Shown here piece after piece: positions 3,035 to 20,298 of a stretch of 33,238 nt of DNA. This stretch comes from Hyphomicrobiales bacterium. Lineage in GTDB: Bacteria; Pseudomonadota; Alphaproteobacteria; Rhizobiales; Beijerinckiaceae. Numbering within the stretch: the first letter of the stretch is position 1; each line of letters begins with the position of its first letter. The stretch is taken from positions 3,516 through 36,753 of the forward strand of contig QBLV01000015.1 in NCBI GenBank assembly GCA_003241815.1, written 5' to 3'. Below the pieces are notes generated by a model. That model saw nothing but the letters and a program-made list of their open reading frames with translations, was not told the DNA's origin and did no database searches. A program made the translations under genes and the position numbers.

Positions 3035-3765
3035 GACGCCTGCCGCCGCGCCACGACCTCGCCGGCCTCTGCGCGAGCATCGAGTGCGGAGAATGTCGCG
3101 GCATCGATCGGCTCGAAGCGCAGGCTGTCGCCGGGCTCGAACAGGAAGGCGCTCGTGCGCTCCGGCGCATAGAGCCGCTCCGGCGTGCGGCCGACGACAT
3201 ACCAGCCGGTCGGCATCGCAAAGCTGGCGATGGCGCTCAAGCCTCCGCCGACCAAGACGGCCTTGCTCTCATGGGGCGGGCGGGGCTTGGTCCTGCGCGA
3301 GATCGCAATCGCCTCGGGCAGGCCGCCGAGATAGGTAAAACCCGGCGAGAAGCCGTACATATAGACTCGGTAAAGCGCCGAGGCGTGGATGCTGGCTGCC
3401 TCCGAAGCGGCGTGGCCCATCAGCGCGGCCATCTCGGCCAGATCCTCGCCATGTGGAGGCTCATAGCAGCAGGGTATCGTCCAGAGCGCCGCCGCCCGGC
3501 CGCGCGTCGCAGGTGCCACCAGCCGCTCTTCGACCAGCGCGATCAGTCGCGCCCGGTCGAGCCGCAGCGGGTCGTAATGGATCATCAGCGAGCGATAGGT
3601 CGGCACGAGCTCGCGCAGTCCATCGGGCGGGTCCGCTGCCAGCGCCGCGTCGAGCGCCAGCACCCGGTCGCTGATGGCAGGATCGACCGTTCGGCCGAAC
3701 TCGACCACCAGCGCAGCCTCCCCGGCGTCGAGAAAAAGGGGGGCAGCGGCCTGATCGTGGCTCAT
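3031..3765 (-). CDS. pxpB: 5-oxoprolinase subunit B (KipI / allophanate hydrolase subunit 1 family)
   Basis: The protein has 244 residues. It shows the KipI-family pattern: an N-terminal ALVVEFG strand, a central YRSLMIHYDPLRLD segment, the strongly conserved YGFSPGFTYLGGLP loop around residues 136-149, and a C-terminal GWYVVGRTPERLY motif. PxpB works with PxpC and PxpA in ATP-dependent 5-oxoproline hydrolysis. The Bacillus homologue KipI was first described as a histidine-kinase inhibitor, but the context with pxpA and pxpC supports the metabolic role. It overlaps pxpA by four bases upstream and pxpC by four bases downstream, so the three subunits are probably made in stoichiometric amounts. 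Confidence 0.93.
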   Translation of the reverse strand: MSHDQAAAPLFLDAGEAALVVEFGRTVDPAISDRVLALDAALAADPPDGLRELVPTYRSLMIHYDPLRLDRARLIALVEERLVAPATRGRAAALWTIPCCYEPPHGEDLAEMAALMGHAASEAASIHASALYRVYMYGFSPGFTYLGGLPEAIAISRRTKPRPPHESKAVLVGGGLSAIASFAMPTGWYVVGRTPERLYAPERTSAFLFEPGDSLRFEPIDAATFSALDARAEAGEVVARRQAS

Positions 3766-4520
3766 GCGAAGGCAGCGAGTCCGATGCCGGCCCCTTCCAG
3801 AGCCGCGCGCACCCGCCTGGCCGTGGCAACGGCGTGGCTGGAATCGCCATGCACGCAGACCGAACGAATCGGGGTCGGCAGGCGCTGCCCCGACAGCGTG
3901 ATGATGGCCCCTTCCGAGACCATCGCGACGACGCGCTCCGCTGCCTCGTGCGGGTCCGTGATCATCGCGCCGGGCAGGTTGCGCGCGACGAGAAGGCCAT
4001 CCTCGGTATAGCCTCGATCGGCGAAGATCTCCTGGTGAACCGTGAGGCCCGCCGCCTCGCCCGCCGCGACCTGCTCAGTGAGGGCCGTCGCCAGGAAGGA
4101 CAGGCCGGGATCGACTGCCTTGATCGCGCGCGCGATCGCATCCGCGACGGGGCGCTCTTCGCAGGAGATGTTGCCGAGCGCGCCATGCGGCTTGACATAT
4201 GTGATGCGGTGACCGGCATAGGCCGCCAGCGCGGCCGCCGCACCGACCTGATAGGCGACGAGGCGCTCGATCTCGCCGGTCGAGAACGGAATCCGCCGGC
4301 GGCCGAAACCCCATAGATCGGGAAAGCCCGGATGGGCGCCGACCGCCACGCCGCGCTCGCGCGCGACCGTGAAGGCATGCGCCATGATCTCGGGGTCGCC
4401 GGCATGCAGGCCGCAGGCGACATTCGCCGACGTGACGATGCCGAGCATCGCCTCGTCGTCGCCGCAGCGGTAGGCGCCGAAGCCCTCGGCGAGGTCCGAG
4501 TTCAGATCGATGGTCATCAT
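3762..4520 (-). CDS. pxpA: 5-oxoprolinase subunit A (LamB/YcsF family)
   Basis: The protein has 252 residues from the ATG at 4520, which is preceded by AGGGG eight bases upstream. A second ATG follows at 4517, and an upstream in-frame extension to 4580 lacks family similarity. Hallmarks of the LamB/YcsF fold are MTIDLNSDLAEGFG at the N-terminus, the VACGLHAGDP segment near 34-43, VGAHPGFPDLWGFGRR near 62-77, YVKPHGALGN near 108-117 and VHGDSSHAV near the C-terminus. It is the third component of the PxpABC 5-oxoprolinase and heads the operon. A GCCGCG-CGCCGA-CGCGGC hairpin (4537-4554) lies just upstream. The GH31 gene lies 103 bases upstream on the same strand, so the two units could be cotranscribed, though their functions do not obviously connect. 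Confidence 0.93.
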   Translation of the reverse strand: MMTIDLNSDLAEGFGAYRCGDDEAMLGIVTSANVACGLHAGDPEIMAHAFTVARERGVAVGAHPGFPDLWGFGRRRIPFSTGEIERLVAYQVGAAAALAAYAGHRITYVKPHGALGNISCEERPVADAIARAIKAVDPGLSFLATALTEQVAAGEAAGLTVHQEIFADRGYTEDGLLVARNLPGAMITDPHEAAERVVAMVSEGAIITLSGQRLPTPIRSVCVHGDSSHAVATARRVRAALEGAGIGLAAFA

Positions 4521-4623
4521 GCTGCGTGCCCCTGAAGCCGCGCGCCGACGCGGCCTCGTCATCCCGAGACAATAGGACAATAGGCGGAAGCCAAGGAAGA
4601 GCCTGCGTGGGTCGAGATCGGCG

Positions 4624-6900: not shown

Positions 6901-6956
6901 GGGGTTGTCTCCGGGATCGGATTATCGTTTTGGCTGTCGGGGCATGTTGGTTCCTT

Positions 6957-7092
6957 CGGAAACACCCCGTCATCCCGGGCGAGCGAAGCTCGGTCCGGGA
7001 TCCATCGTAAGGCAGCGGCGGTGCTCTATGATGGATCCCGGAGCTGCGCCGCTTCGCGGCTTGTCCGGGATGACCGTGCGGTTCCGAGAAAA
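6957..7092. repeat. Long palindromic intergenic repeat (REP-like) at the 3' end of the ABC ATPase gene
   Basis: Nested inverted repeats are visible. The outer arms are GTCATCCCGG (6969-6978) and CCGGGATGAC (7065-7074). The inner arms are TCCGGGATCCAT (6994-7005) and ATGGATCCCGGA (7031-7042). GAGCGAAGCTC-like and GCCGCTTCGCGGC-like minor stems lie between them. Imperfect symmetry extends outward to TTCGGAA (about 6955) and TTCCGAGAA (about 7082). The structure matches the general form of dispersed palindromic elements common in alphaproteobacterial genomes. It reaches into the ATPase gene and supplies its last codons and stop. It may also act as a terminator or mRNA-stabilising hairpin before the GH31 gene. 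Confidence 0.8.
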
Positions 7093-8048
7093 GCTGGGAT
7101 CTGCGGCAGGCCGGGCGAGGCGCCATAGAGATAGCTTTCGCCGCCGAGCCGCTCGACGAGTTCGATCGCCAGCGGCAGGCCCTGGCTCTCGGAGAGCGAC
7201 AGATGCTCGGGCCGGACGCCGAGCGTCACGGGGGCGCCCGAAGCAAGCGTGGCAGTCTCACAGGCGATCTCGTGGCCGCCATCTCCAACCGTCACGATGC
7301 CCGGCCGTGCCACCGTACCCGGCAGCAGGTTCATGCGCGGCGAGCCGATGAAGCCGGCGACGAACAGGTTGTCGGGGCGGTTGTAGAGTTCGAGCGGTGT
7401 CCCGACCTGTTCGATCTTGCCGGCCTGCAGCACGACGATGCGGTCCGCTAGCGTCATCGCCTCGACCTGGTCGTGGGTGACGTAGATCATCGTGCCGCCG
7501 AGCTCGGCATGCAGGCCCGCCAACTCCTTGCGGGTCGCGACGCGCAGCTCCGCATCGAGATTGGACAAGGGTTCATCGAACAGGAAGATTTTCGGGTCGC
7601 GTACGATCGCGCGGCCGATCGCGACGCGCTGGCGCTGGCCGCCCGAGAGCGCGCGGGGCTTGCGCTCGAGATAGTCGGTGAGCTGCAGCATCCCGGCTGC
7701 GCGCCGCACGCGCTTGTCGATTTCGTCGCGCGGCAGGCCCATGTTCTCCAGCGCGAAGGCCATGTTCTTGTAGACGCTCATATGCGGGTAGAGCGCATAG
7801 GACTGGAACACCATGGCGAGCCCGCGCTCGGAGGCCGGCAGGCCGGTGACGTCGGTGCCGTCGATCGCGACCGCGCCGTCCGTGACCTCTTCCAGCCCGG
7901 CGATGACCCGCAGCAAAGTGGATTTGCCGCAACCCGAGGGGCCGACGAAGACGACGAATTCGCCGTGCGCGACATGCAGGTCGATGCCGTGAAGGACATG
8001 CGTCGATCCGAAGGATTTGCGGACGCCGGTGAGGCTGAGTTCGCTCAT
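7026..8048 (-). CDS. Sugar ABC transporter ATPase (UgpC/MalK type), C-terminus replaced by repeat
   Basis: The protein has 340 residues from the ATG at 8048, which overlaps the upstream permease stop (ATGA). Walker A is GPSGCGKST (36-44), the Q-loop is in VFQSYALYPHMS, the signature is LSGGQRQR near 133-140, Walker B is IFLFDEPLSNLD near 153-164, and the switch histidine is in YVTHDQVEAMT near 187-197. A MalK/UgpC-type regulatory (TOBE/OB) domain follows. The family normally has several dozen more residues after the GGESYLYG segment. Here the frame runs into the palindromic repeat and stops, so the last roughly 25-30 residues are repeat-encoded. The ATPase domain is intact, so transport may be retained. 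It energises the two permeases encoded immediately upstream. Confidence 0.92.
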   Translation of the reverse strand: MSELSLTGVRKSFGSTHVLHGIDLHVAHGEFVVFVGPSGCGKSTLLRVIAGLEEVTDGAVAIDGTDVTGLPASERGLAMVFQSYALYPHMSVYKNMAFALENMGLPRDEIDKRVRRAAGMLQLTDYLERKPRALSGGQRQRVAIGRAIVRDPKIFLFDEPLSNLDAELRVATRKELAGLHAELGGTMIYVTHDQVEAMTLADRIVVLQAGKIEQVGTPLELYNRPDNLFVAGFIGSPRMNLLPGTVARPGIVTVGDGGHEIACETATLASGAPVTLGVRPEHLSLSESQGLPLAIELVERLGGESYLYGASPGLPQIPAFLGTARSSRTSREAAQLRDPS

Positions 8049-9097
8049 TTCATGCCCGTGTTGGCAATGCCCGTGGTGATGAAGCGCTGCAGGAAGACGA
8101 AGACGAGCGCCACCGGCAGCAGCGTCACCACCGTCATGGCGAGCAGGTAATGCCACTGCGTCTGCAACTCGCCCTGGAAGGCGTTGAGGCCGATCTGCAG
8201 CGTGTAGGACTCGGTCTTGGTCAGCACCGCTAGCGGCCAGAGGAACTCGTTCCAGCGCCACATCACCGAGAAGATCGCCAGCACAGCGAGTGCCGGCATG
8301 GCCAGCGGCATGACGATGCGCCAGTAGATCTGCCACTCCGAGGCCTTGTCCATGCGCGCGGCCTCGATCAGGTCACGCGGCAGGGTCAGCATGTATTGCC
8401 GCAGCAGGAAGACGCCGGTCGGCGTGGCCGCGCCGGGCAGGATCACCGCCCAGAGCGAGTTGACCAGCCCCAGTTCGGTGACAACCAGATAGACCGGCAC
8501 GAGGATGATGGTGATCGGGATCATCAGCGTGCCAATCACCATCAGCATCACCGTGTTCTTGCCGCGGAACTCGTAGATCGACAGGGCATAGGCCGCCATC
8601 GAGTTGATGATCAGCGTGATGATCGTCGCCACCACCGTGACGAAGACCGAATTCCACAGGAAGCGCATGAAGGCGAAGCGCTCCAGCGGCTCGGTGTAGT
8701 TCTCGGTTGCGAGCTTGAATTCCCGCACGAGCGTACGCTTGTCGATCGGCACGCGGATCACCTCGGCCGGATTGGCCGGGTCGACCATCTGCGCCTGGAT
8801 GCCGATGCGCCGGACCTGCGCCAGCACGCGCGTCGAGCCGTCGGGCATCGTGACCTCGAACAGCGGCAGCGGCTGAGCATGGCCCGCGACCACCACCTCC
8901 CGCTGCGACATCGGCAGCAGCGAGGGCGGGAATTCGAGCAGGCCGGCCTGCGTCTTGAAGGACGACATCGCCAGCCACGCCACCGGCCCGAACATCAGCA
9001 CGACGCCAAGTGCCAGATAGGCATAGGCCGCGACATCGGTCCAATGCCAGCGGCCGGGCTTGCGGCGGGCCGTGGCGAGCTTTGTGACGAGGCTCAT
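8045..9097 (-). CDS. Sugar ABC transporter permease (MalG type) with enlarged first periplasmic loop
   Basis: The protein has 350 residues, longer than the usual 270-290 for MalG-type permeases. The extra length lies between the first membrane helix (about 24-47) and the second (about 140-160). It contains a soluble segment with strands such as PLPLFEVTMPDGSTRVLAQV and VIRVPIDKRT. The EAA loop that docks on the ATPase is IEAARMDKASEWQIYWRIVMP near 236-256. Several further hydrophobic helices follow. It forms the membrane channel with the MalF-type partner, whose stop overlaps this ATG by four bases. An enlarged loop is also known in some alpha-glucoside permeases, which would fit the GH31 enzyme in the operon. 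The substrate remains inferred. Confidence 0.92.
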   Translation of the reverse strand: MSLVTKLATARRKPGRWHWTDVAAYAYLALGVVLMFGPVAWLAMSSFKTQAGLLEFPPSLLPMSQREVVVAGHAQPLPLFEVTMPDGSTRVLAQVRRIGIQAQMVDPANPAEVIRVPIDKRTLVREFKLATENYTEPLERFAFMRFLWNSVFVTVVATIITLIINSMAAYALSIYEFRGKNTVMLMVIGTLMIPITIILVPVYLVVTELGLVNSLWAVILPGAATPTGVFLLRQYMLTLPRDLIEAARMDKASEWQIYWRIVMPLAMPALAVLAIFSVMWRWNEFLWPLAVLTKTESYTLQIGLNAFQGELQTQWHYLLAMTVVTLLPVALVFVFLQRFITTGIANTGMK

Positions 9098-10119
9098 GCC
9101 GCCCCCTTGCGGTTGCTGGCCGCCAGTTGCGCCAGGGTCAGCGCGAAGAGCACGAGGCCGAGCACCACCGAGGCCGCAGCCGCCAGCCCGAAGTTCTGGA
9201 CCTGGTTCGAGAAGGCGGTCTCGTAAATGTAGTGGACGACCATCAGCGTTGCGGTGCCCGGCCCGCCGCCGGTCAGCACGAAGACCTCGTCGAAGGTCTG
9301 CACGCCCTTGATCAGCGCCAGCACGATCACGACGATCATATTGGGCCAGAGCAGCGGCAGGGTGATGCGCCAGAATACGCGCCAGCGCGGCGTCGCATCC
9401 ATCTCGGCGGCCTCATAAAGATCGGCGGGAATAGCCTGCAAGCCCGCGAGCAGGATCAGCGTGTAGAAGCCCATATGGGCCCAGACCGAGACGAAGACGA
9501 TCCAGAACATCGCCCAGCTCGGATCGACCAGGAACAGGATGCGCTCGCCGCCGAGCGCGGTGATCCCCGCGTTCAGAAGGCCGTCGCGCTGCAGGATCCA
9601 CTTCCAGGTCAGCGCCACCACGACGGGCGAGAGCAGAACCGGGAAGAAATAGACCGCGCGGAAGAAGCCGCGCGCTTTGATCTTCATGTTCAGGACCACT
9701 GCGGTCACCAGCGAGAACAGCACCATCGCGGTGACCTGGAAGACCGTAAAGCGGGCGGTGTTGGAAACGCCGCGCCAGAAATGGTCCTCGCGGCAGGAGT
9801 TCGGATCCAGAAAGGAGCCGCAATCGAACAGATAGGCATACTGCTCGCCGCCGACATAGGGCCGCTGCGAGGGAAACAGCGCGGTCCCCCCCGTCACCGA
9901 GAAGACCACGTTGATGATCAGCGGCAGGAAGACGAACAGGCCGAAGAAGACGATGTTGGGCAGCAGGAAGGCATAGGCCATCCGCCGCTCGCCGATGAGG
10001 CGCTGCAGCGCGCTCATCGGCCAGTCGATCATCCGCATCAGGAGAGAGAGCGGCGCGGCGAAGAGGCGCGCCGCGCCGCTGCTCTCGCCGCGCGGAGCGG
10101 CTGGTTCGGCGGAAGCCAT
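9094..10119 (-). CDS. Sugar ABC transporter permease (MalF type)
   Basis: The protein has 341 residues. A cytoplasmic N-terminal tail of about 45 residues precedes the first helix (AFLLPNIVFFGLFVFLPLI). A periplasmic loop with two cysteines (CGSFLDPNSC) follows, then five further helices. The EAA loop is YEAAEMDATPRWRVFWRITLP near 237-257. It pairs with the MalG-type permease to form the channel of a carbohydrate uptake transporter of the CUT1 type. The ATG at 10119 lies six bases after the stop of the binding-protein gene, and the stop overlaps the next permease. All four transporter genes are therefore on one tightly coupled transcript. Confidence 0.93.
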   Translation of the reverse strand: MASAEPAAPRGESSGAARLFAAPLSLLMRMIDWPMSALQRLIGERRMAYAFLLPNIVFFGLFVFLPLIINVVFSVTGGTALFPSQRPYVGGEQYAYLFDCGSFLDPNSCREDHFWRGVSNTARFTVFQVTAMVLFSLVTAVVLNMKIKARGFFRAVYFFPVLLSPVVVALTWKWILQRDGLLNAGITALGGERILFLVDPSWAMFWIVFVSVWAHMGFYTLILLAGLQAIPADLYEAAEMDATPRWRVFWRITLPLLWPNMIVVIVLALIKGVQTFDEVFVLTGGGPGTATLMVVHYIYETAFSNQVQNFGLAAAASVVLGLVLFALTLAQLAASNRKGAA

Positions 10120-10125
10120 GCGTCG

Positions 10126-11406
<1,281 letters not shown>

Positions 11407-11455
11407 CTGCGTTCTCCCCAAAATGTCTCCGGCGCTCATGGACGCCTTGGCCGGC

Positions 11456-11485
11456 ACTAAGGCAAACGTTTGCCCTCCTTGTCAA
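11456..11485 (-). promoter_or_regulatory. Promoter with perfect LacI-type operator for the sugar ABC operon
   Basis: GGCAAACGTTTGCC (11461-11474) is a perfect 14-base palindrome with the central CG typical of LacI/GalR operators. On the minus strand a consensus TTGACA -35 box (11485-11480) lies on one side. A weaker CTTAGT or CCTTAG -10-like box lies on the other at 17-18 bases spacing. The operator therefore fills the spacer, which would block RNA polymerase when the repressor is bound. The divergent LacI gene next to it is the obvious candidate binder. The -10 assignment is the weak part. Confidence 0.75.
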
Positions 11486-11541
11486 CGCATCCGTTCGCCT
11501 GCATTGCTGAGGTATACCGGCTTTTGCCGGAAGAGACGCCG

Positions 11542-12657
11542 ATGGGCCGGGGGAGACGTGAAGAGCCGATGACGGGCAAACCCGCCAAACCGGTGCCGGA
11601 AGGCGCGCGCAAGCACGCAGCCTCGCTGGCCACGGTCGCGCGTGACGCCGGCGTCTCGGTCGCGACGGTCTCGCGCATCGTCAACGGCAAGACCGGGCGC
11701 GCCTCCGCGCAGACCATCGCGCGCGTCGAGGAAGCGATCACCCGGCTGAGCTATCGGCCCAACTCGGTGGGACGGGCGCTACGCCACCGCACAAGCCGCG
11801 TCGTGGCGATGCTGGCGCCCAATCTCGACAATCCCGCCATGGCGGCGATCGCGGTCTCGACCGAATCGGCGCTGCGTGACGCCGGTTTCGTCATGATTCT
11901 CTGCGACACCCACGACCGCGCGGAGCTGCAGGACGATTATCTGCGGGCGATGCGCGACCAACTGGTGGCCGGCTATGTCATGGTCAGCGCGGTGCGCAGC
12001 AAGGGGCTGGAGGAGACGCTGAAGCGCGGCGATCCGACGGTCTTCGTCGCCAGGCGCAACCCGCTCGGCGGCGGCGCGTTCGTCGGCATCGACGACCGAA
12101 AGGCCGGCGCCGATGTCGCTGACTTCCTGCTGGCCTGCGGCGTCGATCGTCCCGCCGTGCTGATGGCCCAGCAGAATGCATCGAGTACATCGGAACGCGC
12201 GGCCGGCTTCATCGAGCGGCTGGTGGCGCGCGGCCTGCCCGACGACGCCATAAGGCGCGCGATCGGCCCGGGCCTGTCGCATATCGAGATCGGCTATGCT
12301 GCAGCTGGCATGCTCGTGCGCGAAGGTGGCTGGCCGCGCGGCGCGCTCTGCGTCAGCGACATGATCGCTTACGGCGCCTATCGGCTGGCCGTGCAGCATG
12401 GCGTGCAGATCCCGCAGCGTTGCCGGCTCGTCGGCGTCGACGGCAATGCGATCAACACCTGGATCGCGCCCTGGCTGACGTCGATCCGCATTCCCTATGA
12501 GAGCTTCGGCCGGCATGTCGTCGAGCAGCTCCAATCGCTTTGGAGCGGCGCCGCGACCAGCGAGATCCGTGTGCCCCATGAAGCCCCCTCGGCATGGAGC
12601 GAGTCGGACGCTCCCATGCGTCCTGCTGCGGGCGCGACCCAGATCGTCAAACGGTAG
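11542..12657 (+). CDS. LacI-family transcriptional regulator of the sugar ABC operon
   Basis: The protein has about 371 residues. The start is placed at the ATG at 11542, with GGAAGA seven bases upstream. An alternative is the ATG at 11569, directly before the DNA-binding domain. The helix-turn-helix with hinge is ASLATVARDAGVSVATVSRI, followed by VEEAITRLSYRPNSVGRALR. A periplasmic-binding-protein-like effector domain (about 85-345) contains VVAMLAPNLDNP, a CGVDRPAVL strand and RLVGVDGNAINTWIAPWLTSI. It is divergent from the binding-protein gene and shares the control region holding the palindromic operator. It most likely represses the operon until the sugar or a derivative binds. It may also repress itself. 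Confidence 0.92.
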   Translation: MGRGRREEPMTGKPAKPVPEGARKHAASLATVARDAGVSVATVSRIVNGKTGRASAQTIARVEEAITRLSYRPNSVGRALRHRTSRVVAMLAPNLDNPAMAAIAVSTESALRDAGFVMILCDTHDRAELQDDYLRAMRDQLVAGYVMVSAVRSKGLEETLKRGDPTVFVARRNPLGGGAFVGIDDRKAGADVADFLLACGVDRPAVLMAQQNASSTSERAAGFIERLVARGLPDDAIRRAIGPGLSHIEIGYAAAGMLVREGGWPRGALCVSDMIAYGAYRLAVQHGVQIPQRCRLVGVDGNAINTWIAPWLTSIRIPYESFGRHVVEQLQSLWSGAATSEIRVPHEAPSAWSESDAPMRPAAGATQIVKR

Positions 12658-13146: not shown

Positions 13147-13614
13147 GTGGCGAAACTCAATGTGAACGGCAAGATGATCGACGTCGAAGCGGCCGGCGAC
13201 ACGCCGCTGCTCTGGGTCCTGCGCGAACAGATCGGCCTGACGGGAACCAAATACGGCTGCGGCGTCGCGCAATGCGGCGCCTGCACCGTGCATATCGACG
13301 GCGTCGCGACGCGCGCCTGCGCACTGCCGCTTGACGCGGTGACGGCGGAACAGAAGATCGTCACGATCGAGGGGCTTTCGCCTGACGGCTCGCATCCGGT
13401 CCAGCAGGCCTGGATCAAGCACGAGGTGCCGCAATGCGGCTTCTGCCAGAGCGGTATGATCATGGCGACCGCCGCCCTGCTGCAGGCCAATCCGAAGGCC
13501 ACCGAGGCCGACATCGCCAGCGAGATCACCAATATCTGCCGCTGCGGCACCTATGCACGAGTCAAGACGGCGATCCTCGATGTCGTCGCCGGCGGCACGC
13601 TCGGTCGCGGTTGA
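13147..13614 (+). CDS. (2Fe-2S)-binding subunit of a molybdenum hydroxylase (isoquinoline 1-oxidoreductase alpha-like)
   Basis: The protein has 155 residues from a GTG at 13147, with GGGAGG (13135-13140) six bases upstream. The N-terminal plant-ferredoxin domain binds one [2Fe-2S] cluster through Cys38, Cys43, Cys46 and Cys58 ([17 protein letters not shown]). The helical C-terminal domain binds the second through Cys97, Cys100, Cys131 and Cys133 (QCGFCQSG and ICRCGTY). This is the small subunit of xanthine-oxidase-family enzymes. The absence of an FAD-domain gene nearby fits the two-subunit IorAB type, in which electrons leave to a cytochrome. It has no signal peptide of its own, so export with the Tat-tagged large subunit is likely. 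It is the first gene of an operon that continues into sox genes. Confidence 0.93.
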
Positions 13615-13627
13615 GGGGGAAACGATC

Positions 13628-15820
13628 ATGAGCATCTCGACCGTCACCACGGGCTTTCGCCCCTCCCGCCGCAGCCTGCTCGCGGGCTCAGCCGCCGCAG
13701 CCGGCGCCTTCACCTTTGGCTTCACGATCCCGTTCGGGAGCGAGGCGCAGGCGCAGGCCGTCGTGCCTGAAATCAACGCCTGGGTCGTCATCCATCCCGA
13801 CGACAAGGTGGTGATCCGCATCGCCCGCTCGGAGATGGGGCAGGGCACGCTGACCGGCCTGGCCCAGCTCGTTGCCGAGGAGCTGAACTGCGACTGGGCC
13901 AAGGTCACGACCGAATATCCGACGCCGGGCCAGAACGTCGCCCGCAACCGCGTCTGGGGCAATTTCTCGACCGGCGGCAGCCGCGGCATTCGCGAGTCGC
14001 ACGACTATGTCCGCAAGGGCGGTGCGGCGGCCCGCACGATGCTGATCCAGGCGGCGGCGAACGAATGGAAGGTGCCCGCCTCCGAATGCGTTGCCGAGAA
14101 GAGCGTGATCACGCACAAGGCGTCGGGGCGCTCGCTGCGCTATGGCCAGGTCGCGGCGGCTGCCGCCAAGATCGAGGCGCCCAAGGACGTCGCGCTGAAG
14201 GATCCAAAGGACTGGACCATCGCCGGCAAGCCATTGGCGCGTCTGGACACGGCCCCCAAGACCGATGGCAGCAAGATCTACGGCATGGATCTGAAGATGC
14301 CGGGCATGCTCAACGCCGCGATCAAGGATTGCCCCGTCTTCGGCGGCAAGGTGAAGAGCTTCGATGCCGCCAAGATCAAGGACATGCCGGGCGTCAAGCA
14401 TGTGCTCCCCGTGGGCGACAGCGCCGTCACCGTCGTCGCCGATACCTGGTGGCAGGCCAAGACCGCTCTCGACGCGCTGCCGATCGTCTGGGACGAGGGG
14501 CAGCACGCCAAGGTCTCGAGCGCGAGCCTGGCCGAGTGGCTGAAGGAGGGGCTCGACGCCCCCAACGCCGTCGTGGGCAACCAGAACGGCGACGTGAAGG
14601 CCGCGATTTCGGGCGCCGCCCGCACCATCGAGGCCGTCTATTCCTATCCGTTCCAGAACCATGCCTGCATGGAGACGATGAACGCGACGGCGCTCTACAC
14701 GCCCGACAAATGCGAGGTCTGGACGCCGACGCAGAACGGCGAGGCCGCGTTGGCGGCAACGGCCGAGGCGTCGGGCCTGCCGATCGCCAAATGCGAAGCC
14801 TATAAGATCGATCTCGGCGGCGGCTTCGGCCGGCGCGGCGCGGTGCATGACTGGGTTCGCCAGGTCGTCGCCATCGCCAAGCAGATTCCCGGCACGCCTG
14901 TGAAGCTGATCTGGTCGCGCGAGGAGGACATGCTGCATGGCCGCTTCCACCCGCTGACCCAGTGCAAGATGACCGGCGCGCTCGACAAGGACGGCAATCT
15001 GACCGGGCTGCACATGCGCATCTCCGGCCAGTCGATCGTCGCGGGCATCTTCCCGCAGAACATCCAGAACGGACGCGATCCCGTCGTCTTCCAGGGGCTC
15101 AACGCGTCGGGGCCGGAGGCCTCGATCGGCTACACAATCCCCAATCTGCTGATCGACCACGCCATGCGTAACCCGCATGTGCCGCCGGGCTTCTGGCGCG
15201 GCGTCAACCTGAACCAGAACGCGATCTATCTCGAATCCTTCCTCGACGAACTGGCCCATGCCGCCGGCAAGGACCCGCTGGAGTTTCGTCGGGCGATGAT
15301 GAAAAACCACCCCAAGCACCTCGCCGTGCTCAATGCGGCCGCCGAAAAGGCGGAGTGGGGCAAGCCGCTGCCGGCCGGCATGTTCCGGGGCATCTGTCAG
15401 ACCATGGGCTTTGGCGCCTATGTCGCGGCAGTGGCCGAGGTCTCCGTCAGCGACGACGGCAAGCTCAAAATTCATCGCATCGTCGCGGCGACCGATCCGG
15501 GCCATGTCGTCAATCCCGCCCAGGTCGAGCGCCAGATTGAGGGCTCCTTCGTCTACGGTCTGTCGGCCGCGCTCTATGGCGAGATCACCATCAAGGACGG
15601 GCGCGTCGAGCAGGAGAACTTCGACACCTATGAGGTGATGCGGCTGGAGGCGATGCCGGCGGTCGAGACCGTGCTGGTGCCGTCTGGCGGTTTCTGGGGT
15701 GGCGTCGGCGAGCCGACGATCGCGGTCGCTGCACCCGCCGTGCTGAATGCGATCTTCGCCGCGACGGGCAAGCGCATCCGCAACCTGCCGCTCAAGAACG
15801 CCGATCTGAAGAAGGCGTGA
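13628..15820 (+). CDS. Molybdopterin-binding large subunit of a xanthine-oxidase-family enzyme (isoquinoline 1-oxidoreductase beta-like)
   Basis: The protein has 730 residues from the ATG at 13628, with a G-rich GAGGGGGAA upstream. A Tat signal is present (SRRSLLAG around 13-20, hydrophobic stretch, AQAQA cleavage site near 40-44), so the enzyme works in the periplasm. Molybdenum cofactor motifs include ARSEMGQGTLTGLAQLVAEE near 62-81 and GGGFGRRGAVHDWV in the middle. GGVGEPTIAVAAP near the C-terminus carries Glu695, the expected catalytic base of the family. The usual reaction is hydroxylation of an aldehyde or N-heterocycle carbon with water as oxygen source. The stop overlaps the soxX GTG by four bases, so this enzyme is translationally coupled to a Sox cytochrome, which is unusual. 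Substrate is unknown. Confidence 0.92.
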   Translation: MSISTVTTGFRPSRRSLLAGSAAAAGAFTFGFTIPFGSEAQAQAVVPEINAWVVIHPDDKVVIRIARSEMGQGTLTGLAQLVAEELNCDWAKVTTEYPTPGQNVARNRVWGNFSTGGSRGIRESHDYVRKGGAAARTMLIQAAANEWKVPASECVAEKSVITHKASGRSLRYGQVAAAAAKIEAPKDVALKDPKDWTIAGKPLARLDTAPKTDGSKIYGMDLKMPGMLNAAIKDCPVFGGKVKSFDAAKIKDMPGVKHVLPVGDSAVTVVADTWWQAKTALDALPIVWDEGQHAKVSSASLAEWLKEGLDAPNAVVGNQNGDVKAAISGAARTIEAVYSYPFQNHACMETMNATALYTPDKCEVWTPTQNGEAALAATAEASGLPIAKCEAYKIDLGGGFGRRGAVHDWVRQVVAIAKQIPGTPVKLIWSREEDMLHGRFHPLTQCKMTGALDKDGNLTGLHMRISGQSIVAGIFPQNIQNGRDPVVFQGLNASGPEASIGYTIPNLLIDHAMRNPHVPPGFWRGVNLNQNAIYLESFLDELAHAAGKDPLEFRRAMMKNHPKHLAVLNAAAEKAEWGKPLPAGMFRGICQTMGFGAYVAAVAEVSVSDDGKLKIHRIVAATDPGHVVNPAQVERQIEGSFVYGLSAALYGEITIKDGRVEQENFDTYEVMRLEAMPAVETVLVPSGGFWGGVGEPTIAVAAPAVLNAIFAATGKRIRNLPLKNADLKKA

Positions 15821-16281
15821 GGACGACGGCAGGAGTGCTATCGCGTCTGGCGCTCGCCGGGGCCGTTCTGGCATCTGGCGGCGCTTCGACTGCTTCGGCG
15901 CTGGAGCCCTATGCCATTGTCGGTGACGCGATCTCGGCGCCACTCGGTCGCCTGATCGGCAACGCGGCGCGCGGCGCGGCGCTGGTCAAGGATCGCGAAC
16001 GCGGCAACTGCCTGATCTGCCATCAGGGTGCCGACCCGTCCGAGCCCTTCCAAGGCAATATCGGGCCGCCTCTCGCGGGCGTCGGCGCGAGGCTCGACGC
16101 CGGCCAGATCCGGCTGCGGCTGGTCGATGCCTCGCTTGTGAACCCGCAGACCGTGATGCCGCCCTATTTCCGGACGGAAAACCTGCATGATGTCGCCTTG
16201 CCATTCCGGGGCAAGCCGGCCCTCTCGGCCCAGGAGATCGAGGATGTCGTCAGCTATCTCGCCACGCTCCAGACGCCCTGA
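15817..16281 (+). CDS. soxX: Sulfur-oxidation cytochrome c SoxX
   Basis: The protein has 154 residues from a GTG that overlaps the preceding stop (GTGA). Residues 1-28 form a Sec signal peptide (LALAGAVLASGGASTASA). One c-type heme site, CLICH, is at 65-69. A likely axial Met114 is in VNPQTVMPPYFR, and IGPPLAGVGARLD between them is a SoxX-type segment. SoxX pairs with SoxA in the periplasm. In the classical pathway SoxAX joins thiosulfate oxidatively to the cysteine of SoxY. The position directly behind a molybdenum hydroxylase raises the possibility that it also accepts electrons from that enzyme, which is inference. The last 38 bases overlap soxY in another frame. Confidence 0.9.
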   Translation: MRTTAGVLSRLALAGAVLASGGASTASALEPYAIVGDAISAPLGRLIGNAARGAALVKDRERGNCLICHQGADPSEPFQGNIGPPLAGVGARLDAGQIRLRLVDASLVNPQTVMPPYFRTENLHDVALPFRGKPALSAQEIEDVVSYLATLQTP

Positions 16282-16738
16282 AGGCGGGCTCGACCGCCGC
16301 AGCCTTGTCGCGGGTGCCGCAGTGGGTCTGGTGGTTGCGGGTTTGCCGGGCCGGGCTGCGAGCGAGACCGCGCCCGACCTTGCGCAACTGATCGCGCGCG
16401 TGACCGAAGGCGTGGCGCCCGAGCGCGGCCGCATCACGCTGTCGATCCCGGCGCTCGCCGAGAACGGCAATTCGGTTGACACCAAGATCGCCGTCGACAG
16501 CCCGATGACGGAGGCCGACCATGTCCGCTGGATTCATCTGATCGCGGAAAAGAACCCGTTTCCGGACATGGCGCGCTTCCATCTCGGCCCGCGCGCCGGC
16601 CGCGCCGAGGTCGCGACCACGCTGCGGATCGCGCAGTCGCAGAAGGTCGCGGTTGTCGCCGCTTTGAGCGACGGACGCTTCGTCATGACGGATGCCGACA
16701 TCGTGGTGACGCTGAGCGCCTGCATCGACGGCGGTTGA
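16244..16738 (+). CDS. soxY: Sulfur-carrier protein SoxY with atypical C-terminus
   Basis: The protein has 164 residues. I chose the ATG at 16244 because AGGAGA lies seven bases upstream and because a downstream start would lose the twin-arginine export signal. That signal is DRRSLVAGAAVG with Arg18-Arg19, followed by a cleavage site near GRAAS. The body shows the SoxY immunoglobulin-like fold, including ALAENGNSVDTKIAVDSPMTE and FPDMARFHLGPRAGRAEV. SoxY carries sulfur intermediates on a cysteine in a flexible C-terminal arm. The usual ending is GGCGG. Here it is SACIDGG, with Cys160 five residues from the end instead of three. It overlaps soxX by 38 bases and lies 11 bases before soxZ. Confidence 0.9.
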   Translation: MSSAISPRSRRPEGGLDRRSLVAGAAVGLVVAGLPGRAASETAPDLAQLIARVTEGVAPERGRITLSIPALAENGNSVDTKIAVDSPMTEADHVRWIHLIAEKNPFPDMARFHLGPRAGRAEVATTLRIAQSQKVAVVAALSDGRFVMTDADIVVTLSACIDGG

Positions 16739-16749
16739 GGAGAGACGCG

Positions 16750-17073
16750 ATGAGTTTCAACGCCCGCATCACCATGCCCGCGCAGGCGAAGGCCGGCGAA
16801 ATCGTCGAGATCAGGGTGCTGACCCGTCACGTCATGGATCGCGGCGGCCAGTCCGACGGCAAGGGCGGCACCGTGCCGCGCAAGATTCTGAACCGGCTGA
16901 CCGCGACCTATGCGGGCGAGCCGATCTTCCGCTTCGACATGCACACCGGCGTCTCCGCTAATCCCTTCGTCTCGTTCACGACACGGGCGGTCGCAACCGG
17001 CGACATCGTGTTCGAATGGCGCGAGGACGGCGGCGCGACCTACACGCGAACCGCCAGGCTGACGGTGACGTGA
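16750..17073 (+). CDS. soxZ: Sulfur-carrier partner protein SoxZ
   Basis: The protein has 107 residues from the ATG at 16750, with GAGGAG (16737-16742) seven bases upstream. It shows the SoxZ pattern: KAGEIVEIRVLTRHVMD near 16-32, TVPRKILNRLTATYAGE near 43-59, and FRFDMHTGVSANPFVSF near 62-78. It has no signal peptide. It is expected to cross the membrane folded together with Tat-tagged SoxY, as described for SoxYZ. It forms the carrier heterodimer that presents the SoxY cysteine arm to its partner enzymes. It is followed by a 140-base gap filled mostly by a palindromic repeat before soxA. Confidence 0.92.
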   Translation: MSFNARITMPAQAKAGEIVEIRVLTRHVMDRGGQSDGKGGTVPRKILNRLTATYAGEPIFRFDMHTGVSANPFVSFTTRAVATGDIVFEWREDGGATYTRTARLTVT

Positions 17074-17104
17074 GCCTCGTCGCATTCGGCCTGCGATCTT
17101 TCTC

Positions 17105-17211
17105 AGCCCTCATCCTGAGGAGCCGCGTCGGCGGCGTCTCGAAGGATGTTTCAAAGCGCGCTGGAGCATCCTTCGAGACGCAAGCTTTGCTGGCTCCTCA
17201 GGATAAGGGCT
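17105..17211. repeat. Long palindromic repeat (REP-like) between soxZ and soxA
   Basis: The outer arms run 17105-17124 (AGCCCTCATCCTGAGGAGCC) and 17192-17211, and pair at 19 of 20 positions. The inner arms, CGTCTCGAAGGATG (17135-17148) and CATCCTTCGAGACG (17067+100 to 17180, i.e. 17167-17180), pair perfectly. It resembles dispersed CCTGAGGAGCC/TTCGAGACGC palindromes common in Hyphomicrobiales genomes. It ends two bases before the soxA GTG, and its right edge contains the AAGGG that is the only visible soxA ribosome binding site. It differs in sequence from the repeat at 6957-7092. Confidence 0.88.
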
Positions 17212-17213
17212 GT

Positions 17214-17984
17214 GTGGCCAAGACCGGGATCGCGCTGATCCTTGCGCTCTCCGTCGTTGTCGTTCCAGCCGGATCGGCGCTGTCGGAGATCAAATCCGGC
17301 TCCGAATTCCTCTCGCCCGAACTGCGCCGTCAGCAGGCGGACGAGACCCGCAACCCGGCTTTCTTCTGGGTCGAGCAAGGTCGCGAACTGTTCAGCCGCA
17401 GGCCTGCCCCGGATGCGCAAGCCTGCATCGCTTGCCATGTCGATCCGCAGCAGAAGCTGCGCGGCGCCGCGACACGCTATCCGCAGGTCGATGCGGCGAC
17501 CGGAAAGCTGCTCAATCTCGAGGGCCGCATCGAGCAGTGCCGCGTCGAGCGCCAGAAGCAGCCGGCCTTTGGCTATGAGAGCCCCGAGCTTCTCTCGATG
17601 ACCGCCTATCTCGCCTCGCTGTCGCGCGGCCTGCCGATGCAGGTAAAGACCGATGGCGCTGCGAACCCCTTTTTCGAGGCGGGTAGGGCCTTCTTCGAGC
17701 GAAGGCAAGGCCAACTCAACCTGTCTTGCCAGCAATGCCATGACGGCCTCGTCGGCCAGAAGCTGCGTGGCGATACCATCAGCCATGGCGCGGGCACGGG
17801 CTATCCCGCCTACCGGCTCGAATGGAACGATGTCGGCTCGCTGCACCGGCGCCTGCGGGCCTGCTCGCTCGGCGTTCGCGCGACCCAGTTCGATTACGGT
17901 TCGGCGGAATACCTCGCGCTGGAACTCTACCTCGCAGGCCGCGCCAAGGGTCTCCCGGTCGAGACGCCGGGGCTACGGCGCTGA
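17214..17984 (+). CDS. soxA: Diheme sulfur-oxidation cytochrome c SoxA
   Basis: The protein has 256 residues from a GTG at 17214. AAGGG lies four bases upstream, inside the palindromic repeat. The frame is open further upstream but only through the repeat. A Sec signal peptide (about 1-22) precedes two c-type heme sites, CIACH (71-75) and CQQCH (172-176). The catalytic cysteine that serves as heme ligand in SoxA is Cys217 in RLRACSLGVRATQF. Cys109 (EQCRVER) matches the equivalent cysteine near heme 1 in diheme SoxA proteins. SoxA with SoxX loads thiosulfate onto SoxY in the periplasm. In most clusters soxB follows. Here the next gene is convergent and encodes a flavoprotein. Confidence 0.93.
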   Translation: MAKTGIALILALSVVVVPAGSALSEIKSGSEFLSPELRRQQADETRNPAFFWVEQGRELFSRRPAPDAQACIACHVDPQQKLRGAATRYPQVDAATGKLLNLEGRIEQCRVERQKQPAFGYESPELLSMTAYLASLSRGLPMQVKTDGAANPFFEAGRAFFERRQGQLNLSCQQCHDGLVGQKLRGDTISHGAGTGYPAYRLEWNDVGSLHRRLRACSLGVRATQFDYGSAEYLALELYLAGRAKGLPVETPGLRR

Positions 17985-18021: not shown

Positions 18022-19299
18022 TCATGTAAACATGTCGGCGCAGATAGCGTCGTACCAGGCAAGGTTCTCGGCCTGGGTCTGCCTGCGGATTTCGGCGCTT
18101 TCGCCCGGCTGCGAGATGAAGGTCTCGACTGCGGCGATGCGCCCGTCCCTGGGCTCGTAGCGGCCGCCGACTTTGATGGCGTCGTCGGTATCGACCATGC
18201 TCCAGCAGGTGTTGATATAGCGCGCCGGAAAGGTCGGAGCGCCGACGAGTTCGCCGCGCAGGATCATGGCCGCGACCTTGGCCTGGCTGTTGGCGGAGAA
18301 AGCCGATTTCGGCATGTCGCCGGCTTGGCAGGCATCGCCGAGCACGACGATGGTGGGATCGACGACGGACTTCATCGTCGCCGGATCGATGGTGCAATAG
18401 CCGTCCGCCGGGGCGAGACCGGCATCGCGCGCAATCGCGCCCGCCATCTGCGCCGGGATGACGTTGACGAAGGCGCAATTCGCGTAGGTTTCGAAGCCGG
18501 TGACGACCGTGCCCGTTTTTGGATCAACCGATGTGATGCCGTCATGCACCTTCGGGCCGAGCCATTCGATCATCGCGCCATAGCGCCGTTCCCAATCCGG
18601 CATAAAAACGCCCTGCTTGGAGAAGCTCTCCTTGGGGTCGAGGATGATGATCCGGGCCTTGGCGCGGCCTGTCTCCTTCAGCACATGCGCGAACATCGAG
18701 GCGCGCTCATAGGGCCCAGGCGGGCAGCGATAGGGATTGGGCGGAGCGATCATCACGATGGTGCCGCCGTCTGGTACCGCGTCGAGCTTTTCCCGGATCA
18801 GTTGCGTCTGCCGGCCGGGCTTCCAGCCATGCGGCATCATCTCCTCGGCTGCTTGCGACCAGCCGGGCACGGAATCGTAGTTCAGGTCGATGCCGGGCGA
18901 GAGCACCAGCCGGTCGTAAGGCAGCCGTCGGCCATCGGACAGCACGACCTCGCTCTTGTCCCGGTCGACCTGCGTGGCACGGCTGCGCACGATCGCAATG
19001 CCGTAGGTCGAGGCCAGCGTGTCGTAGCGATGGACGATCTCGTCATAGCGCTTGAAGCCGCCGATATAGAGATTGGAGTGGAAGCAGGTCTGGTAGGTCT
19101 CGTTCTCCTCGACCAATGTCACCGAGATCCCGCCTTGACTGTCTCTGGCGAGGTATTTCGCCGCCGTCGCGCCGCCCGGCCCGCCGCCGACGACGACCAC
19201 CCGGGGCCGGGACTGGCCCAAAAGCGCGGGCACGGAGAGCGTGCTCGCGGCCAGCAGAGCGCCTGAGCCTGCCACCAGATCCCGTCGCGTCGGTTTCAT
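18022..19299 (-). CDS. soxF: Flavocytochrome c sulfide dehydrogenase flavoprotein (SoxF/FccB type)
   Basis: The protein has 425 residues, with AGAGGA eight bases before the ATG. A Tat signal starts TRRDLVAGSGALLAAS. The FAD-binding Rossmann motif is RVVVVGGGPGGATAAKYL near 33-50. YQTC with Cys72 matches the covalent FAD attachment cysteine of the family. Cys192 (YRCPPGPYERA) and Cys365 (YINTCWS) correspond to the redox-active pair that handles sulfide. A second nucleotide segment, TIVVLGDAC, lies near 316-324. With its cytochrome partner it oxidises sulfide to sulfur or polysulfide in the periplasm. It lies 32 bases behind the cytochrome gene and is convergent with soxA, 37 bases apart. Confidence 0.93.
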   Translation of the reverse strand: MKPTRRDLVAGSGALLAASTLSVPALLGQSRPRVVVVGGGPGGATAAKYLARDSQGGISVTLVEENETYQTCFHSNLYIGGFKRYDEIVHRYDTLASTYGIAIVRSRATQVDRDKSEVVLSDGRRLPYDRLVLSPGIDLNYDSVPGWSQAAEEMMPHGWKPGRQTQLIREKLDAVPDGGTIVMIAPPNPYRCPPGPYERASMFAHVLKETGRAKARIIILDPKESFSKQGVFMPDWERRYGAMIEWLGPKVHDGITSVDPKTGTVVTGFETYANCAFVNVIPAQMAGAIARDAGLAPADGYCTIDPATMKSVVDPTIVVLGDACQAGDMPKSAFSANSQAKVAAMILRGELVGAPTFPARYINTCWSMVDTDDAIKVGGRYEPRDGRIAAVETFISQPGESAEIRRQTQAENLAWYDAICADMFT

Positions 19300-19331: not shown

Positions 19332-19667
19332 TCATGGCTTGCTCGTCAGCGCGCCGAAATAGGCGGCGAGCGCTGCAATCTCGTCGCGGCTCAGACGGGC
19401 GGCGACGGCCTGCATCACCGGATTGTCGCGCTGTCGGCTGCGATAGGCGTCGAGCACGGCGACGAACTGATCCTCCGGCCAGCCGATGATCGGCGGGATG
19501 CCGCCGCGACTCCGGCCGGAGATCTGGTGGCAGGCGCTGCATTCAGCGGCGAGATACGCGCCCAGCGCCCGGTCCCCGGCGGCTTCTACCGGTGAGGCGA
19601 CGAGCAGCAATGCCGCAACGCCTCGCAGGGCGAACCCTGCGAAGCGCCGCGCATGTCGCCCTTTCAT
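19332..19667 (-). CDS. Small c-type cytochrome, probable electron-accepting subunit of the sulfide dehydrogenase (FccA/SoxE type)
   Basis: The protein has 111 residues from the ATG at 19667. A longer in-frame start at 19709 would put extra charged residues before the signal peptide. A Sec signal (FALRGVAALLLVASPVEA) is followed by a single heme site, CSACH (43-47). IPPIIGW follows, and a Met in RDNPVMQAVAARLS is a plausible axial ligand. The size and position directly before the flavoprotein fit the monoheme cytochrome subunit of flavocytochrome c sulfide dehydrogenase. It would pass electrons from the flavin to the periplasmic cytochrome pool. The label SoxE is by position only, since some SoxE proteins have two hemes. 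Confidence 0.85.
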   Translation of the reverse strand: MKGRHARRFAGFALRGVAALLLVASPVEAAGDRALGAYLAAECSACHQISGRSRGGIPPIIGWPEDQFVAVLDAYRSRQRDNPVMQAVAARLSRDEIAALAAYFGALTSKP

Positions 19668-20298
19668 TCTGTGCCTGCCCAAGCCGGGCTCCCTGTCGCA
19701 AGCATCCACCCGTTACCAATCTCCGCAGTGTAGAGCAGCAGATCTGCAAGGCAGGAGGATGGAGCCGGACTCCTTTCTGGAAGAGTTCTCAGGTTCCGTC
19801 TTTCACGATCCTGTCAGAGGCGCGCGAGCACTTTGGCTGCCGCGACGTGGCTCGGGCCGGCCGTGACCCGCCTCGGATCGAGCTCCGACGTCACACCCTG
19901 ATCGCTTCAAGGGAAGGCCCGGCTTTGGGGGCATTCAGAGGGCGACGTCATGGGCTGGCTTGCCGCTCCGGGCGATCCGCGGCAGCAGCGAACGCGCCGC
20001 ATGATCGCAATGATCTGGATTTCCAGCCGGAAAGGCTGGTGCTGCGAGAGAGGACTGAACTGGCTTATGGTTCAGCAAAATCAATATCTTATGAGATAGT
20101 GTGTAACAGCGTAACGAGCACAGAAATGTTACCGTCGCGGCTGCGGAGGCGAGGAGAATGTCCACAGTTGCCCCCGTTCTCCGATCAGACGAACCGCCTC
20201 CATCTCTAACTCACGCCCGAACTTCCGGCGCTGCATACGCGCGCCCGGCTCCATGAAACACCTAATCTCGATGTCCACGAAATCGGCAGCGGCCCTCG
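19668..20298. other. Non-coding region holding the sulfide dehydrogenase promoter side and a tRNA-Thr fragment
   Basis: Open frames in this region on either strand lack recognisable motifs and good ribosome binding sites, and I do not call them. The right part (about 20060-20150) is clearly richer in A and T than its surroundings. A fragment of tRNA-Thr lies at 20034-20061. Close to it, ACAGCGTAACG (about 20106-20116) echoes ACAGCGTTTGTAACG found near the intact tRNA at about 30372-30386. No integrase or transposase remnant is visible. Confidence 0.5.
20034..20061 (-). repeat. Duplicated 3' end of tRNA-Thr (att-like direct repeat, left copy)
   Basis: These 28 bases match 30442-30469, the 3' end of the tRNA-Thr gene plus three flanking bases, with a single mismatch (C/T at 20055 versus 30463). 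Both copies lie in the same orientation. The match covers the CCA end, the discriminator, the 3' acceptor strand, the 3' T-stem strand and part of the T-loop. That is the segment typically duplicated when an integrative element inserts at a tRNA gene. The rest of the tRNA is absent here. Confidence 0.75.

Follow-up and report, generated by a model that had tools for sequence, protein, structure and literature searches.

In the canonical Sox system of the Paracoccus type, the cytochromes SoxXA and the cysteine-armed carrier SoxYZ act together with SoxB and with SoxCD, a molybdenum (Mo) enzyme of the sulfite oxidase family, and the carrier arm ends in the motif GGCGG. The glycines of this arm fit the narrow channel of SoxB, and the presence of soxXYZA is commonly taken to mean thiosulfate oxidation. 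Complete or truncated Sox sets, SoxB included, are described in the available passages of four papers (PMC2907700, PMC10708946, PMC2864759, PMC11582611). Divergent SoxYZ proteins beside alcohol, methanol and formate dehydrogenases, for which a role in carbon metabolism has been proposed, are described in sections of a survey whose set excluded sequences without a GGC motif, so that carriers with an AACIE arm fall outside it (PMC11237559). Here we analyse a six-gene unit, iorA-iorB-soxX-soxY-soxZ-soxA, in a stretch of 33,238 nucleotides (the window) from a Hyphomicrobiales bacterium (contig QBLV01000015.1, positions 3,516 to 36,753). Comparison across genomes confirmed that the unit is a widespread Sox variant, free of SoxB and SoxCD and tied to an aldehyde-dehydrogenase-like Mo enzyme, that reaches beyond the window. 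This conserved gene cluster of many Proteobacteria points to an undescribed route oxidising sulfur-containing compounds.

The iorAB-sox unit and its carrier arm

The six genes named in a first-pass annotation of this DNA are all present on the plus strand with open frames, and soxF lies convergently downstream, as it had also proposed:

13147-13614, plus strand: iorA, [2Fe-2S] small subunit of the xanthine oxidase family (GTG start, 155 amino acids; Pfam Fer2_2 and Fer2)
13628-15820, plus strand: iorB, Mo-binding large subunit with a twin-arginine translocation (Tat) signal and the GVGEP glutamate (730 amino acids; Pfam MoCoBD_1/MoCoBD_2)
15817-16281, plus strand: soxX, c-type cytochrome, with a GTG start overlapping the iorB stop (TIGR04485)
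16244-16738, plus strand: soxY-like carrier of the AACIE-arm type with a Tat-like signal (probable start; open frame from 16187; TIGR04487, Pfam SoxY)
16715-16735, plus strand: carrier-arm codons S-A-C-I-D-G-G, replacing GGCGG (cysteine codon at 16721-16723)
16750-17073, plus strand: soxZ-like carrier partner (Pfam SoxZ 79.9 bits; TIGR04490 73.8 bits)
17214-17984, plus strand: soxA, dihaem c-type cytochrome with a cysteine haem ligand (GTG start placed from the signal peptide; open frame from 17016)
18022-19299, minus strand: soxF, flavoprotein of the flavocytochrome c sulfide dehydrogenase family, convergent with the unit (Pfam FCSD_central and FCSD-flav_bind)
19332-19709, minus strand: soxE-like monohaem c-type cytochrome downstream of soxF (Pfam Cytochrom_C)

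The GTGA junction reported between the Mo gene and soxX is read at 15817-15820, and the probable soxY start at 16244, placed from the signal peptide, would make soxY overlap soxX. The description of the genes as packed into one unit holds as far as soxZ and needs some qualification for soxA, the probable start of which is set about 140 bases from soxZ by a stretch that contains a highly stable hairpin. SoxX and SoxA pass their curated cut-offs (79.9 bits against 61 for TIGR04485; 209.8 against 110 for TIGR04484), and both CxxCH motifs and the ligand cysteine of the window SoxA are matched in the solved SoxA proteins 1h31 and 2c1d. The soxY and soxZ genes proved to be sox-type, as annotated, but off-type: SoxY matches TIGR04487 best but misses its cut-off, and SoxZ falls slightly under that of TIGR04490 (73.8 bits against 76).

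It is the altered SoxY arm, absent from the first-pass annotation, that provides the best mechanistic clue. The window carrier scores 156.5 bits against TIGR04487, the family named 'SoxY-related AACIE arm protein' (below its cut-off of 172), versus 91.3 bits against true SoxY, TIGR04488 (cut-off 125), and its arm ends in SACIDGG, not GGCGG. The TIGR04487 cut-off itself was passed in none of 61 genomes in one scan and in 25 of 397 genomes of the order. An xAC arm was found in all 86 iorAB loci that passed a hidden Markov model (HMM) step and were scored (56/56 named, 30/30 unnamed), with glutamate or aspartate two residues past the cysteine in every one. At soxB loci, the arm read GGCGG in 18/18 cases with a SoxY in the 1.5-kb flank; this set comprised the 27 best of 30 matches, 25 over the cut-off and two partial, nine of the 27 having no SoxY in the flank. 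Three loci with unreadable arms were dropped: L153, which has no real SoxY, L158, where the contig ends, and L106, a Bosea bin in which SoxY reads to no normal arm, through either an assembly frame error or a broken gene. A further 26 loci carry an xAC arm and no full IorB, as their sequence ends before or inside iorB; 23 of these were re-examined with longer flanks, the contig of L198 ends inside iorB, and L010 and L021 show the 3' end of iorB.

The division between arm types is also seen in SoxY trees. With the arm removed, 38 iorAB-linked SoxY sequences split from 25 canonical ones with support of 100/100 (63 sequences, the window being represented by the Bosea rows L094, L095 and L098). 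The free SoxA tree needs two changes, and a single clade of 39 iorAB-linked rows versus 12 canonical rows was not rejected (approximately unbiased test, P = 0.689). Judged by sequence, arm and tree, the window carrier groups with the AACIE-arm family and is not a true SoxY.

IorAB has the hallmarks of the xanthine oxidase family, namely MoCoBD domains (118.7 bits for MoCoBD_1 and 117.4 for MoCoBD_2 in IorB, which has a twin-arginine start), a [2Fe-2S] subunit (Fer2_2, 93.9 bits in IorA) and a base glutamate near the C-terminus. The best solved relatives by sequence are the aldehyde dehydrogenase small subunit 8gy3_B for IorA (E = 3.6e-48) and 8gy3_C for IorB (E = 4.9e-72). A Foldseek search with the AlphaFold model of IorB (mean predicted local distance difference test score 82) ranked 8gy3_C, from the Gluconobacter aldehyde dehydrogenase, at the top (template modelling score 0.82), followed by the Escherichia coli periplasmic aldehyde oxidase (0.61). 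IorB is nearest to periplasmic aldehyde dehydrogenase by sequence and by modelled fold; the Protein Data Bank searches for a substrate returned the aldehyde dehydrogenase/oxidase class only and indicated no substrate. Across the loci compared, the GVGEP motif of IorB is kept in 115/115, both CxxCH motifs and the RxRxC ligand motif of SoxA in all 103 readable sequences (12 of the 115 loci being unreadable), and CPPGPYE with the second cysteine of SoxF in 56 of 58. We take these motifs to be catalytic residues, and the SoxA cysteine also aligns with the cysteine of solved SoxA.

Conservation of the unit and occurrence of SoxB and SoxC

An IorB alignment scan of named genomes gave at least 569 confirmed relatives, the best 80 of which were kept for neighbourhood counts. 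Among the 69 of these with at least 4.5 kb downstream, soxX, soxY, soxZ and soxA were all present in 68; the HMM step missed soxX in 12 of the 69 and in 5 of the 35 other loci described below, tblastn found all of them, and these loci were counted complete for gene content. The sole exception, L159, is a metagenome bin with the doubtful label Bordetella parapertussis, and its IorB groups with that of Pseudorhodoferax. The other 11 of the best 80 end too early, with sox genes still visible in four (L150, L154, L158, L162). Twelve of the best 80 are at 84-94% identity to the window IorB (seven Bosea, one Boseaceae, three Hyphomicrobiales/Rhizobiales and one Methylobacterium bin), and the named IorB loci place the unit in Bosea, Bradyrhizobium, Methylobacterium, Duganella and others.

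The linkage was recovered equally when loci were chosen by the carrier. In 35 loci picked by SoxY (the 27 best-scoring matches and eight whose match reached the profile end), iorB was present in 35/35 and iorA was also seen in 34. Across 398 Pseudomonadota genomes, in which the two best IorB candidates per genome were scored, each of the 20 SoxY matches of at least 156.8 bits adjoins an IorB that is 60% or more identical. The SoxY match that follows in score (G445, 144 bits) adjoins SoxB and not such an IorB. Conversely, 25 IorB matches in this sample reach at least 56% identity, of which 20 adjoin such a SoxY and five do not, and identity then falls from 56% to 45% for the next match. The interpretation given in the first-pass annotation is supported in part. 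The functional link between IorAB and SoxXYZA that it had put forward is strongly supported, because the adjacency it had proposed to survey is conserved across Alpha- and Betaproteobacteria; its chemistry, in which the Mo enzyme would act on a SoxYZ-borne group and SoxX or SoxA would accept the electrons, is hypothetical. Chance adjacency of iorAB and the sox genes is ruled out by conservation in the named, SoxY-picked and phylum samples.

The unit is frequently extended by soxF: of the 86 loci in which the set of four sox genes is complete, 47 have soxF either within the operon or following it in the same orientation. The annotation of the Methylobacterium plasmid pNMS14P1 lists (2Fe-2S) and Mo genes together with cytochrome C, a flavin adenine dinucleotide oxidoreductase, soxX, a 'SoxY-related AACIE arm protein', soxZ and soxA. 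The cytochrome at 19332-19709 of the window has weak similarity to the soxF-adjacent cytochrome of relatives. In four genomes of about 2 Mb (G770, G563, G606 and G687; loci L262-L265), the unit is kept with no soxEF between iorB and soxX, and two of them (G687 and G770) carry an additional, second IorAB that is Sox-less. We also looked for additional genes kept with the operon, such as a regulator, a thioredoxin or a gene for cofactor maturation; with a crude gene caller, and with some clusters being antisense frames, no cluster of genes other than ior and sox recurred in over 19 of the 116 loci.

The window genome itself yielded no match above the curated cut-off for either SoxB or SoxC when the rest of the assembly was checked (90.3% complete, 261 contigs): the best matches were 124.6 bits against 550 for SoxB and 71.7 bits against 420 for SoxC, SoxD not having been searched for. 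Incomplete assembly could explain a missing soxB in this genome alone, but soxB is likewise missing from 11 further unit-bearing genomes of the genus that are 99-100% complete. In 37 genomes of the genus, taken to be Bosea, 24 have a SACID-type SoxY with iorB just upstream, and these divide evenly into 12 with SoxB over the cut-off and 12 without; among the 12 SoxB-less genomes, SoxC reaches its cut-off in one (G013) and in none of the other 11. Two further genomes (G018 and G027) combine SoxB with a single SoxY match of the other type, the GGCGG arm having been read for G018 only. Eight have neither SoxB nor a SoxY match, among them G030, which has SoxC at a contig end, and three with partial SoxY matches (G017, G031, G034) were placed in neither count. 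A tblastn search of 127 iorB-bearing loci (1.99 Mb), seven of which are known to lack soxYZ, found no SoxB. According to parts of one report, several Bosea have a complete canonical sox set and B. vestrisii, B. eneae and B. massiliensis do not oxidise thiosulfate to sulfate; these parts make no mention of the iorAB-sox unit (PMC5894208).

Possible chemistry of the unit

From the linkage of the genes and how widely it occurs, together with the altered arm and the retained motifs of IorB, SoxA, SoxF and the arm cysteine, we infer a substrate and a carrier-bound chemistry. Our tentative preference, still with considerable doubt, is that the unit represents a conserved Sox variant of the periplasm, independent of SoxB and SoxCD, in which IorAB, SoxXA and an AACxE-armed SoxYZ, often joined by SoxEF, work together and a carrier-bound group is oxidised by IorAB. 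Through its cysteine-ligated haem, SoxXA would join a sulfur group of the thiol type, most likely an organic thiol or a thiol/aldehyde adduct, to the arm cysteine by a disulfide bond. The bulkier, acidic arm would be unsuited to SoxB and matched to another partner, and IorAB may be that partner or may share its electron acceptor. Presented to IorAB, the loaded group would be hydroxylated or dehydrogenated at carbon, the Mo centre converting C-H to C-OH and the conserved glutamate acting as base; electrons would pass through the [2Fe-2S] clusters of IorAB to SoxX, SoxA or SoxE, and SoxEF would strip the remaining sulfane or sulfide and release the carrier. A carrier-bound oxidation accounts for the coincidence of arm type and iorAB. 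The separate branch of iorAB-linked SoxY, the missing SoxB in the iorB-bearing loci and in half of the same-genus unit genomes, and the nearness of IorB to the Gluconobacter aldehyde dehydrogenase also speak for our preference. A bolder and more doubtful form of this proposal is a second Sox cycle, in which the AACxE arm may present a covalent organosulfur group to a xanthine-oxidase-type Mo hydroxylase that oxidises its carbon; many Alpha- and Betaproteobacteria would then need neither SoxB nor SoxCD to oxidise organic thiols or thiol adducts by means of a carrier familiar from inorganic sulfur oxidation.

Several observations weigh against a carrier-bound oxidation by IorAB, and relatives of IorAB that lack Sox genes are chief among them. 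In a quick tree of 68 IorB sequences, with long branches to the four outgroup rows and L261, the Sox-linked clade is supported at 99% (Shimodaira-Hasegawa-like approximate likelihood ratio test) versus the four outgroup rows, and ten Sox-less IorB sequences fall within it, which requires about six changes. Among them are plasmid copies from Sinorhizobium meliloti, Sinorhizobium sp., R. gallicum, M. trichosporium and A. tumefaciens. In six of the ten Sox-less loci, three of them closely related, a same-strand CxxCH frame is no more than 4 kb away, with annotated cytochromes. Because such relatives are nested in the clade, the Mo enzyme can do without SoxYZ, and the genome G553 adds to the case that IorAB is able to act alone: its single, 100% complete contig carries iorA-iorB-soxX-soxA without soxYZ (L257, G553:C1:2349500-2364500), and no SoxY match was found in this genome. 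SoxXA could here pair with IorAB minus the carrier. Two carriers outside the 86 scored loci lack the acidic arm residue (AACVI and AACLI). In the phylum sample, at least 20 of the 398 genomes have the unit, and 15 of those 20 also have SoxB, against 59 of 398 overall, 14 of the 20 belonging to two groups. The unit is enriched in SoxB genomes of this sample, yet independent of SoxB; because 15 of the 20 carry SoxB elsewhere, a link to ordinary thiosulfate oxidation stays in play.

The strong conservation of IorB speaks for a carrier-bound oxidation, and covariation within the unit against it. Over 66 named loci, which were selected by IorB and so are biased toward its conservation, mean pairwise identity is 74% for IorB, 69% for IorA, 53% for SoxX and SoxA, 52% for SoxZ and 50% for SoxY; IorB is again the best conserved in the SoxY-picked loci, at 67-75% identity to the window protein against 36-62% for the four Sox proteins. 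Distance matrices of IorB and the Sox proteins correlate at r = 0.50-0.58, with none of 2,000 permutations as high in each case, and part of this covariation would be expected from species descent alone. Correlation is higher for IorB with IorA (r = 0.73) and for SoxA with SoxY (r = 0.84): the Sox proteins covary more with one another than with IorB, as two sub-modules would.

Regarding the Sox-less loci, the cytochrome of the S. meliloti locus has no meaningful similarity to soxE. On plasmid pOB3b1 of M. trichosporium OB3b (L271), a close Sox-less IorAB lies beside genes for an eight-CxxCH cytochrome, an annotated arylsulfatase, XdhC and a nucleotidyltransferase. The idea that IorAB is always Sox-linked is ruled out by the Sox-less plasmid kin and by the five of 25 phylum IorB matches without an adjoining SoxY.

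Such loci are what would be expected if IorAB were an autonomous periplasmic aldehyde dehydrogenase with SoxXA or SoxE as its electron outlet, while SoxYZ with SoxXA and SoxEF handled a separate, co-occurring sulfur compound and the link lay in shared electron transfer and regulation. The closest solved relative is an aldehyde dehydrogenase, a cytochrome-c-like frame accompanies six of the ten Sox-less loci, and one genome has iorAB-soxXA without soxYZ; we nevertheless consider this account rather unlikely, as it leaves unexplained both the arm change in 86/86 scored iorAB operons and the retention of soxYZ in 68/69 named loci. SoxYZ might instead bind an aldehyde through the arm cysteine, forming a hemithioacetal that IorAB would convert to a thioester or acid, with no sulfur oxidised and SoxXA and SoxEF maintaining the thiol state of the carrier. 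The carbon-metabolism role proposed, in the sections available, for other divergent SoxYZ beside alcohol, methanol and formate dehydrogenases favours this idea (PMC11237559). So does the aldehyde dehydrogenase type of IorB. It is nonetheless improbable: the cysteine-ligand motif in 103/103 SoxA and CPPGPYE with the second cysteine in 56/58 SoxF are, in roles we partly assume, machinery for S-S chemistry, and no conserved hydrolase lies beside the unit.

Inorganic chemistry fares less well. IorAB could stand in for SoxCD and oxidise carrier-bound sulfane sulfur in a thiosulfate or sulfide route that uses a different Mo family; like SoxCD, it is a periplasmic Mo enzyme with SoxXA and SoxYZ as neighbours, and the over-representation of the unit in SoxB genomes (15/20 versus 59/398, 14 of the 20 from two groups) would fit. 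The base glutamate of the xanthine oxidase family, kept in 115/115 IorB, and a fold resembling C-H hydroxylating enzymes argue against it, 12 of the 24 same-genus unit genomes have no SoxB to release sulfate, and we know of no xanthine-oxidase-family enzyme that oxidises sulfane sulfur, which makes this substitution very improbable. The first-pass annotation had offered, as its milder reading, an ordinary aldehyde oxidase standing by chance beside a partial sox cluster that relies on soxB and soxCD encoded elsewhere. SoxB is indeed found elsewhere in 15 of 20 phylum and 12 of 24 same-genus unit genomes. The idea is weakened because half of the same-genus unit genomes lack SoxB and nearly all of those (11 of 12) lack SoxC; in addition, the arm is not of the soxB-locus type and neither SoxB nor SoxC exceeds its cut-off in the window genome. 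With the neighbourhood conserved across classes, independent neighbours are largely refuted and scarcely credible.

Gene surroundings and described counterparts

One further element lies inside the unit:

17102-17213, no strand assigned: long palindrome between soxZ and soxA, like a repetitive extragenic palindromic (REP) element (fold -84.6 kcal/mol, z -12.2)

This near-perfect palindrome of 112 bases resembles mobile palindromes of the REP type, could alter the level of the soxA message and is present in some Bosea only. Its 16-base end recurs in the soxZ-soxA gap of several other Bosea loci (L012, L015, L021 and L098), and 265 of the 276 loci compared have no exact match to it. A scan for sigma-70-type promoters found none. 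Upstream of the unit, 2012-4580 and 4624-12657 hold a CT_A_B, CT_C_D and LamB/YcsF trio, which we take to be of the 5-oxoprolinase type, a GH31 glycosidase, an ATP-binding cassette transporter with a solute-binding protein and, at 11470-12657, a LacI-type regulator. These genes (2012-12657) are probably unrelated to the iorAB-sox unit.

The unit carries soxXYZA without the enzymes that complete the pathway and with another arm type; therefore, an annotation of thiosulfate oxidation may mislead wherever the unit occurs. With six to eight genes, it is a compact setting in which to ask whether SoxYZ carries more than inorganic sulfur. The same question is raised for other divergent SoxY proteins in passages of the survey cited above (PMC11237559). 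The SoxY subfamily is already named in a database, as TIGR04487, the family in which the window SoxY and its kin group despite the window score lying below the cut-off; the name, given by NCBI curators, carries no information on IorAB or function. No report describing the iorAB-soxXYZA pair as a system was found in the open-licence literature, most subscription journals being outside the scope of that search.

The membrane-bound aldehyde dehydrogenase of Gluconobacter (8gy3) provides the nearest solved relatives of both IorB and IorA, at 27% identity in the fold comparison. An enzyme of this type presumably has three subunits and delivers electrons to its own c-type cytochrome subunit. No gene for such a dedicated cytochrome lies beside iorAB; the next gene is soxX, and Sox cytochromes stand there instead. 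Other IorB-like enzymes, of at most 45% identity, are likewise xanthine-oxidase-family Mo subunits of similar length, and the gap between 56% and 45% sets them apart from the Sox-linked clade. Among carriers, the TIGR04557 quinoprotein dehydrogenase-associated carrier and the SoxYZ-S2 and SoxYZ-S4 groups, as described in the sections available, are similarly tied to a dehydrogenase and not to SoxB; SoxYZ-S2 and -S4 are fused SoxYZ proteins with partners other than those of the unit (PMC11237559). With the canonical Sox system the unit shares SoxXA with its cysteine-ligand motif, SoxYZ with its arm cysteine and the accessory proteins SoxEF. It departs from that system in having an xACx(E/D) arm in place of GGCGG, neither SoxB nor SoxCD, and a Mo enzyme of the xanthine oxidase rather than the sulfite oxidase family.

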